Positions 18,045 through 20,681 of a DNA stretch of 44,300 bases are shown here, piece by piece. This stretch comes from an uncultured Bacilli bacterium (GTDB lineage: Bacteria; Bacillota_I; Bacilli_A; RF39; UBA660): NCBI GenBank assembly GCA_947624955.1, contig CANQMM010000006.1, positions 1-44,300 on the forward strand. The letters run 5' to 3'. Position 1 is the stretch's first letter; each line of letters opens with the position of its first letter. A program made the translations under genes and the position numbers. The notes beneath the pieces are model-generated. The model did not search any database, was not told the DNA's origin, and worked only from the letters and a program-made list of their open reading frames with translations.

Positions 18045-19037
18045 ATGAAAGTATTAGATGCTAATAAAGGAGAATTTGATGATGATATTAGTATCCGTCC
18101 TAGTAAGTTAGATGAGTATGTTGGACAGACGGATATTAAGGAAAATATTCGCATATTTATTAAAGCTTGTCAAATGCGGGATGAGGTTTTAGATCACGTC
18201 TTATTGTATGGCCCTCCAGGATTAGGCAAAACGACACTAGCACACATTATTGCTAATGAATTAGGAAGTAATTTAAAGACCGCTAGTGGGCCATCGATAG
18301 AAAAGAGTGGCGATTTAGCAGCGGTATTATCTTCTTTAGAACCGGGGGATGTCCTATTTATCGATGAAATCCATCGGATGCCAAGATACATTGAAGAAAT
18401 ATTATATCCGGCGATGGAAGATTTTGAACTCGATATAGTTATACCTAGTGCCGATGGGACATCGAGAAATATTAAAATAGATTTACCACCTTTTACATTA
18501 GTTGGTGCTACTACGCGAGCCGGGGATATTTCTAGTCCTTTGCGAGATAGATTTGGGATTGTTTCAAAGTTGAATTATTATTCAGTCGATGAATTATATG
18601 AGATTATTAAAAGAACTAGTCGGGTTTTGGAAATGCCAATTACAGATGAAGCGGCTCGAGAGTTAGCCAATCGTAGTAGAAAAACACCGAGAATTGCTAA
18701 TAGGTTATTTAAAAGGGTAAGAGATTTTGCCTTGGTTTTAGGAATTAATGAAATAGATATGGAAACTACTAAAATGGCTTTAAAAAGATTAAACGTCGAT
18801 GATTCGGGGTTGGACGCTATCGATATTGAATATCTCGAATCTTTAATTATGAAATTTAATGGCGGACCGGTGGGAGTCGAAACCATCGCTACATCTATTG
18901 GGGAAGAGGTTACAACAATTGAAGATGTTGTCGAGCCATATTTATTACAAGAAGGATTTATTAAACGAACTCCGCGGGGAAGAATAGCAACTGATAAATC
19001 TTATAAGCATTTAAATATTAGTAAAGAAGAAAAGTAA
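18045..19037 (+). CDS. ruvB: Holliday junction DNA helicase RuvB
   Basis: '[12 protein letters not shown]', '[22 protein letters not shown]', 'FIDEIHRM', '[10 protein letters not shown]'. Confidence 0.98.
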
Positions 19038-19059: not shown

Positions 19060-19088
19060 TTGATTGTAAAGTGGGTTTATGATATATT
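19060..19088 (+). promoter_or_regulatory. Promoter of the tandem-hairpin RNA
   Basis: TTGATT-N17-TATATT with TATGA extended -10 (TATGATATATT). Confidence 0.6.
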
Positions 19089-19134
19089 TTAGTTGCAAGA
19101 AATTTTAAATTTTCTTTGCATATAATAAGAAAAA

Positions 19135-19243
19135 GCGGTGAACCCAGCCGTATAAATTGGGAACGAAAAAAGCGGTGAACCCAGCCATTAAGTTGGGAAC
19201 GAAAAAAGCGGTGAACCCAGCCATTAAATTGGGAACGAAAAAA
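19135..19243 (+). repeat. Three tandem 36-37 bp repeats
   Basis: GCGGTGAACCCAGCC(GTATAAA/ATTAAG/ATTAAA)TTGGGAACGAAAAAA at 19135-19171, 19172-19207, 19208-19243. Confidence 0.95.
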
Positions 19244-19245
19244 GC

Positions 19246-19272
19246 AATTAGAGATTCAACTCTAATTTTTTT
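19246..19272 (+). terminator. Intrinsic terminator of the tandem-hairpin RNA
   Basis: AATTAGAG attcaa CTCTAATT TTTTT; perfect 8 bp stem. Confidence 0.85.
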
Positions 19273-19280
19273 ATAAATAT

Positions 19281-19309
19281 TTGACGAACGTATGTTTTTA
19301 AAGTATAAT
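19281..19309 (+). promoter_or_regulatory. SigA promoter overlapped by a LexA (SOS) box, upstream of mtaB-recD2
   Basis: TTGACG-N17-TATAAT; CGAACGTATGTTTT (19285-19298) is near the Bacillus SOS consensus CGAACRNRYGTTYG. Confidence 0.65.
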
Positions 19310-19377
19310 TAAAAGGGAGTGGAAATTAATCACGATAGTTTTGCAATTATTGGAAAAAGCAAAACTTTATATTTAGT

Positions 19378-19388
19378 TGTGATATAAT
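19378..19388 (+). promoter_or_regulatory. Extended -10 promoter proximal to mtaB
   Basis: TGTGATATAAT 18 nt before the mtaB start. Confidence 0.5.
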
Positions 19389-19406
19389 CTATTAGAGGCG
19401 GTACTT

Positions 19407-20681
19407 ATGACATTTAAAATAATTACTTTAGGATGTAAGGTAAATACTTATGAGAGTGAAATAATGCAGGAGAAGTTATTAGCAGCCGGTTATCAGGAAA
19501 CTACGGGACAAGCCGATATTGTCATTATTAATACTTGTTCCGTTACTAATATGGCCGATGCTAAAAGTCGGAAATTAATTAGAGGAGCGAAAAGAGATAA
19601 TCCCAATGGCATTTTAGTGGCTTGCGGTTGTATGACGCAAAACCATCAGAATGATTTAGATGATTTAGATATCGATATATTAATTGGGACTAAAGATAAG
19701 AGTAAAATTGTCGAGTTAATAGAGAACTTTAGAAAAACTAAAGATAAATATAAAGACTTTGACAATGGCAAAGCGCGAACTTTTGAAGATATGCAAGTGA
19801 AGAAATTTACTACGCACACACGAGCTTTTTTAAAAATTCAAGATGGTTGCAACAACTATTGCTCTTATTGTATAATTCCTTATCTAAGAGGAAATTTACG
19901 AAGCAAAGATATCGATGTGGCTTATAAAGAGGTCCAAGATTTAGTGAATAATGGCCATAAAGAAATTGTCCTAACCGGTATTCATACGGGGAGTTATGGT
20001 ATAGGTACCAATTATGATTTAGCTGATTTAATTCAAAAAATCAGTACGATAGAGGGGCTTGTAAGAATTAGAATTAGTTCGATTGAAGTAACGGAACTTA
20101 ATGATAAGTTTATGGCTTTATTAAAGACCAATGATAAAATTTGTAATCATATGCATATTCCATTACAAGCCGGTAGTGATCGAATTTTAAAATTAATGAA
20201 TCGAAAATATGATAAAGCCTATTTTAAGGAAAAGGTTGCTTGCATAAGAAGCATTCGTCCGGATATCAGTATCAGTACGGATGTCATAGTGGGATTTCCT
20301 TCTGAAACGGCTGACGAGTTTAAAGAAACTTGTGATTTTTGTCAGGAGATGGCTTTTAGCAAAGTTCACGTTTTTCCTTATTCAAGAAGAGAAGGGACTA
20401 AAGCTTGTGAGATAGAAGGACATTTAGATAATGGGATAAAGAAAGAAAGAGCAAGACAACTAATCGAGGTTAGCAATGAATTAGAAAGAGATTATAATCA
20501 AAAATTCATTAATCGCGTAGTTAATGTCTTAATTGAAGAAATTATCGATGGGAAAAGTGTCGGACATACATCTAACTATTTAAAAGTCTATGTCGATGAG
20601 GTGTTAAAGACTAATGAAAGCTATGATGTTTTAATTAAAGAAGAATATTTAGATGGATTAAAGGGGGTTATAAATAAATAG
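19407..20681 (+). CDS. mtaB: tRNA t6A37 methylthiotransferase MtaB
   Basis: 'ITLGCKVNTYESE', 'INTCSVTNMADAKSRK', 'IQDGCNNYCSYCIIPYLRG'. Confidence 0.93.
   Translation: MTFKIITLGCKVNTYESEIMQEKLLAAGYQETTGQADIVIINTCSVTNMADAKSRKLIRGAKRDNPNGILVACGCMTQNHQNDLDDLDIDILIGTKDKSKIVELIENFRKTKDKYKDFDNGKARTFEDMQVKKFTTHTRAFLKIQDGCNNYCSYCIIPYLRGNLRSKDIDVAYKEVQDLVNNGHKEIVLTGIHTGSYGIGTNYDLADLIQKISTIEGLVRIRISSIEVTELNDKFMALLKTNDKICNHMHIPLQAGSDRILKLMNRKYDKAYFKEKVACIRSIRPDISISTDVIVGFPSETADEFKETCDFCQEMAFSKVHVFPYSRREGTKACEIEGHLDNGIKKERARQLIEVSNELERDYNQKFINRVVNVLIEEIIDGKSVGHTSNYLKVYVDEVLKTNESYDVLIKEEYLDGLKGVINK

Follow-up and report, generated by a model that had tools for sequence, protein, structure and literature searches.

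The window, a 44,300-nucleotide stretch from the genome of an uncultured Bacilli bacterium, carries an array of three tandem repeats between ruvB and an mtaB-like gene. The features of this region are listed in Table 1. The array was the top tandem repeat of the 44 kb by Tandem Repeats Finder, with a score of 209 compared to 47 for the runner-up. The unit starts given in a first-pass annotation made from the sequence alone (19135, 19172 and 19208) were exact, and its observation that the units differ only in the loop was borne out, all variation falling within 6-7 nt.

Table 1. Features between ruvB and mtaB, in window coordinates
Feature	Position	Strand	Remarks
ruvB, upstream neighbour	18045..19037	+	RuvB_N, E 3e-74
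Probable array promoter, TTGATT, 17 nt, TATATT, TG ahead of -10	19060..19088	+	9/12
5' leader hairpin, TGCAAGAAA...TTTCTTTGCA	19094..19120	+	folding z -2.1
ToxI-type unit 1, 37 nt	19135..19171	+	predicted pseudoknot: S1 GCGGU/GCCGU, S2 CCCA/UGGG; A6 linker
ToxI-type unit 2, 36 nt	19172..19207	+	S1 GGU/GCC, S2 CCCA/UGGG; A6 linker
ToxI-type unit 3, 36 nt	19208..19243	+	pairings and linker like unit 2
Intrinsic terminator, AATTAGAG-ATTCAA-CTCTAATT and T-run	19246..19272	+	8-bp stem, 6-nt loop
Second promoter, TTGACG-N17-TATAAT	19281..19309	+	11/12; upstream of toxN in G002, of mtaB in the window
LexA-box-like CGAACGTATGTTTT	19285-19298		overlaps -35 of second promoter
Former toxN translation-start region	19310..19344	+	GGGAGTGG retained; start codon and codons ~1-153 deleted (G002 alignment)
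Scar: toxN 3'-end remnant (G002 codon 154 onward) and downstream flank	19345..19399	+	local score 46
mtaB-like radical-SAM methylthiotransferase, downstream neighbour	19407..20681	+	UPF0004 and Radical_SAM

The promoter proposed in the first-pass annotation is present, but promoter-like matches around the array are no commoner than in shuffled sequences. At the position of the leader hairpin, the congener described below has another palindrome. The perfect 8-bp terminator, on the other hand, stood up well: the hairpin folds much better than shuffles (z -5.4), and the position and shape of its AT-rich stem are kept in relatives. A consensus terminator scan misses it because the stem has just 2 G-C pairs. 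No ORF had been apparent in the first-pass annotation. There are in fact 39-aa repeat ORFs on both strands of the array, but they are broken in relatives whose units are 34-35 nt long. A small repeat protein was rejected on the grounds that these frames are a by-product of the 36-nt period, and a CRISPR array was rejected because the units abut without spacers.

Relationship to type III antitoxins

No Rfam family (Rfam 15) and no known riboswitch or sRNA matched the array at gathering score, and at E<=5 nothing but a meaningless mir-19 match was returned over the region. The RF02519 ToxI covariance model (gathering score, 50 bits) gave no match at the array either. A riboswitch or known sRNA was rejected on this basis. 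The Rfam scan proposed by the first-pass annotation agreed with its failure to match the array to a known riboswitch or sRNA family, but only as far as Rfam reaches: as set out below, the array falls among the type III RNA antitoxins, which the Rfam ToxI model fails to see.

In type III toxin-antitoxin systems, ToxI is a tandem-pseudoknot RNA that inhibits the endoribonuclease ToxN. When the array was used to search its own genome, a second site was recovered on another contig (C18:7908-8028, 72% identical), where an array of 36-nt repeats with a terminator lies upstream of a 165-aa ORF (C18:7396-7875). This ORF encodes ToxN (Pfam PF13958, E 5e-48; AbiQ by PADLOC); its best PDB match is the ToxN structure 4ato (E 1e-24), and 2xd0 (ToxN), 4glk (AbiQ) and 7d8o were also matched. 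Because the C18 array precedes a ToxN gene, the unit type found in the window belongs to type III toxin-antitoxin systems. A second ToxN gene in this genome, C18:15633-16097, has an array of its own. When applied to these toxN-linked arrays, RF02519 gave 17.2 bits at C18:16193-16261 and no match at C18:7908, showing that the Rfam model is narrow. The two complete toxIN loci of this genome (G000 C18:7396-8028 and C18:15633-16246, the latter L015) lie within 9 kb and have different ToxI repeats.

The same site was then compared in G002, one of only two other available genomes of the genus. The order there is ruvB, array, terminator, intact toxN and mtaB, and the toxN product matches ToxN in the PDB (E 7e-21) and AbiQ in PADLOC (E 8e-35). 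The array and terminator are identical at 136 of 143 bases (95%) between G002 and the window, while identity at four-fold degenerate sites is only 33-47% in ruvA, ruvB, mtaB, recD2 and another two genes; the stretch from ruvB to the array can scarcely be aligned. Strong constraint has therefore acted on the array over most of the period since the species split. The conservation in relatives on which the first-pass annotation had made its reading depend is evident from this and from the arrays of the wider family. The description of a stand-alone gene, however, holds for the window genome only, as toxN follows the same array in the congener.

In the window the promoter between the terminator and toxN was retained, the start and interior of toxN are gone and the 3' end is left. 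The local score of this scar against the G002 toxN 3' end and flank was 46, compared to a best score of 35 among 500 shuffles, and the array and scar lie within a single unbroken contig. The nearest relative that bears toxN at this site is another species (G002). Given the intact toxN of G002 and the scar in the window, the window array is an antitoxin left orphaned when its toxin was deleted. We consider it very likely from these comparisons that the array is the ToxI of a once-complete type III locus of the ToxIN/AbiQ family between ruvB and mtaB that lost its toxin gene by deletion. At 19338-19366, on the edge of the scar, lies a perfect inverted repeat of 8 bp, AGTTTTGC/GCAAAACT, which the deletion mechanism may have left behind.

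The array resembles the antitoxins of ToxIN/AbiQ systems, including AbiQ/antiQ of Lactococcus, in several respects. These systems share tandem H-type pseudoknot repeats of ~34-37 nt, A-rich junctions and an intrinsic terminator. ToxIN antitoxins are expected to have two or more repeats of ~34-45 nt, and the window has three of 36-37 nt; its A6 linkers provide A-rich junctions where cleavage is putative, and the terminator at 19246-19272 occupies the place between antitoxin and toxin. A PF13958 toxN adjoins the array in the congener and in the other loci of the same genome. The differences are that no PF13958 gene lies downstream in the window, for which reason the array is classed as the orphaned antitoxin half rather than as a working system, and that the repeat sequence is too divergent for RF02519. 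In addition, toxN of G002 and several relatives has a separate promoter with a LexA-like box, in contrast to published type III operons, for which a single promoter is described (PMC5086642).

That second promoter was examined further. Between the terminator and toxN, or its scar, G002 and the window have TTGACGAACGTATGTTT...TATAAT in common. The palindrome resembles sites ahead of recA (CGAACAAATGTTTA) and lexA (TGAACGTTTGTTTG) in the same genome. Genome-wide, LexA-box-like patterns were no commoner than a reversed control, and the case for a LexA box therefore rests on position. An AAC-N4-GTT core was present in 6 of 40 terminator-to-toxN stretches examined, some of the six being close relatives (L133-L135), compared to 0.4 expected from shuffles; a seventh case, L145, was read directly from the sequence. 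Besides the window, the loci with such a palindrome are L005 (G002), L133, L134, L135, L035, L043 and L145. These sites suggest that toxN in some ToxIN loci may be under SOS (DNA damage) control, separately from the antitoxin.

Predicted folding of the repeat units

To examine the fold, 68 units were gathered from 30 arrays. Pairs were counted by script in a fixed register because whole-unit MAFFT alignments displaced the 3' strand by at least one base. In 49 distinct unit fragments, some of them related, and with the units that lack the CC/GG core of S2 (two of them from orphan arrays) left out, the six pairs at the core of an H-type pseudoknot were paired in 99% of cases, compared to 86% (maximum 90%) with shuffled partners and 20-52% in slid registers. 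As the register was fixed on the CC/GG core, pairing at 9/-3 and 10/-4 is in part built in, and it is the remaining four pairs that carry the argument. The most variable pair, 8/-2, was seen as C-G, T-A, G-C, A-T and G-T. The outer S1 position was paired in only 30 of 49 fragments, yet all four Watson-Crick forms are represented there. With S1 and S2 jointly supported by this covariation, each unit of the array is predicted to be an H-type pseudoknot. The window units have GGU/GCC as S1, which unit 1 extends to five pairs, and CCCA/UGGG as S2.

The CCCA/TGGG stem of the first-pass annotation is among the predicted pairings, and the covariation among relatives that it recommended looking for was found. 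What it had described, however, is S2 of a pseudoknot; a simple hairpin was rejected since covariation supports both stems together. Plain RNA folding of the window array recovers S1 alone. A variant form of the unit occurs at L133, L134 and L135, where units of 59 nt keep the usual GGTGAACCCAGCC...TTGGGACTT pseudoknot and have an insert of ~24 nt in loop 3 that resembles an extra hairpin; one ordinary 34-nt unit follows.

ToxI-type arrays in the family of the host

Of 196 genomes from the family of the host, 33 had a PF13958 match above threshold. To survey the arrays, a sequence-only model of two units and terminator (R1) was built from 22 arrays, including that of the window, and run on 196 genomes of the family. 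Of the arrays that proved to be orphans, R1 had been trained only on those from the window and from G006. Matches were called strong when E was about 1e-11 or lower, the terminator was included and the locus could be assessed; they were tallied by hand. Linkage of this class to toxN was seen in about thirty loci besides G002.

Of 44 strong arrays, 25 had an intact toxN, 7 had a toxN broken by stops or reduced to fragments (G033 C72, G017, G075 C10, G169, G093, G205 and G218) and 12 had none (the window, G006 C2, G137, G207 C61, G009, G033 C19, G162 C29, G162 C58, G086, G061 C20, G098 and G071). A divergent toxin downstream of the orphans was rejected. A sense-strand tblastn search with 26 ToxN proteins downstream of 21 candidate loci and the window gave nothing better than E 0.04, and the genes next downstream of the orphan arrays are unrelated ones. 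At least 700 nt of downstream sequence were present for each orphan. Eight of the 12 orphans come from genomes that gave no ToxN match; missing contigs may hide a toxin acting in trans though not an adjacent one. The pseudoknot can still be formed by 28 of the 32 units of these 12 arrays. Weaker R1 matches formed a decay series down to a single repeat or the terminator alone. Orphan ToxI arrays are common in this family, and the same loss of toxin has recurred.

In one case the same orphan array (L116 in G061 C20 and L117 in G098 C85) is contained in a block of ~450 bp that is 94-96% identical in two genera with different neighbour genes, which reflects either horizontal spread of the orphan or a misbinned contig. 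Orphan arrays L110 (G137) and L117 (G098) adjoin a gene of the Abi_2 (AbiD/AbiF) family.

Fate of the array after loss of the toxin gene

In complete systems the precursor is a substrate of ToxN, which cuts it at A-rich junctions and whose active site is capped by the pseudoknots (PMC5086642, PMC8860590); published ToxN proteins cleave within A-rich sequence (PMC8860590). By homology, the window array would yield a transcript of ~178 nt that folds into three H-type pseudoknots. A ToxN of this type would be expected to cut the A-rich linkers and to hold the freed pseudoknots in a ring, by which it would be silenced. With its cognate toxin gone from the locus, the window RNA is predicted to remain an uncut precursor unless some ToxN accepts it.

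The first-pass annotation had taken the array for a multivalent RNA, either a protein or RNA sponge or a tandem ligand sensor. Much of this fits: the RNA is predicted to be discrete, terminated, structured and multivalent, its flanks and linker are conserved, and its target is likely to be a protein. A ligand sensor found no support, and a sponge representing a new kind of RNA is contradicted by G002, where the array is linked to toxN, as is its class in the thirty or so further loci. Although the lack of an Rfam match for a discrete, terminated and repeated RNA speaks for novelty, we regard a new stand-alone RNA as very improbable. The window RNA is instead a ToxI-type antitoxin, of a known class, in an unusual toxin-less state that recurs in the family of the host. 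It is also improbable, and the least likely of the three fates considered here, that the array helps to silence the ToxN proteins encoded on C18. Two ToxN genes are present in the genome, and S1 and the overall shape of the unit are common to both unit types, but S2 and the 3' flank differ (CCCA/UGGG-AACG in the window, UUCC/GGAA-CUU on C18), the cognate-type ToxN of G002 shares just 51% and 45% identity with the C18 proteins, and most orphans occur where no ToxN is found. Moreover, ToxI RNAs of Pectobacterium and Bacillus do not cross-protect (PMC3475682, PMC5086642). This divergence of the C18 proteins, taken with the published lack of cross-protection, leaves a relic or protection against incoming ToxN.

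Loss of a toxin is safe for the cell, while loss of an antitoxin is not. Loss of the toxin before the antitoxin is therefore the expected order. We lean slightly towards a relic, in which toxN was recently lost and a functionless RNA, perhaps still transcribed, is left to decay. Decay of the toxin is frequent in the family, given the 7 broken and 12 absent toxN genes among strong arrays, and remnants with one repeat or a terminator alone exist. On the other hand, the three window units have no pair-breaking change and only one loop change relative to their own repeats. The other reading, which we hold to be quite possible though less probable, is that the RNA was retained as an anti-addiction element that neutralises ToxN from plasmids, phages or kin without a toxin of its own. 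All three units are intact, as are the promoter and terminator, at a locus where synonymous sites have nearly lost identity, though a recent deletion accounts for this equally well. Over a quarter of the strong arrays are without toxN, yet most of their units keep the pseudoknot, and eight of these arrays are in genomes without any ToxN; one orphan is common to two genera, whereas the single-repeat remnants point to decay. In the collections searched, 194 plasmids and 2 phages carry relatives of ToxN, which makes pressure from incoming ToxN plausible, but no mobile element with the window unit type was found. A search of 2.9 million viral contigs gave no copy of the unit, and a decoy carried by viruses was rejected for that reason; a search of viral contigs with the G002 ToxN likewise found no relative.

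More generally, chromosomal toxin-less ToxI arrays might constitute a recurrent, selectively retained form of RNA immunity in this family ("anti-addiction RNA"), a proposal that we consider tentative and rather unlikely. If it is true, hosts retain the antitoxin RNA, discard the toxin and disarm plasmids, phages or rivals that carry ToxN. With 12 of 44 arrays toxin-less in one family, retention of RNA antitoxins as immunity can be tested directly. In either case, an apparently unknown RNA gene is explained as the antitoxin RNA of a system that lost its toxin by deletion, and type III antitoxin arrays can stand alone in genomes, where they escape both Rfam and toxin-based searches.

In the open-access literature searched, which was without the original type III classification and in which an absence carries little weight, no chromosomal orphan ToxI was described; the one toxin-less case was a phage pseudo-ToxI. 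That element, from phage PhiTE, shows that ToxI-like repeats without a toxin are able to suppress ToxN in trans (PMC3475682), which favors retention for protection. It is phage-borne, has 1.5 repeats and was expanded under selection (PMC3475682), while the window array is chromosomal, full length and followed by a terminator of its own and a toxN scar. In type II systems, orphan antitoxins have similarly been read as remnants or, in the anti-addiction model, as protection from incoming toxins (PMC7354431); those antitoxins are proteins, whereas the antitoxin of the window is an RNA.
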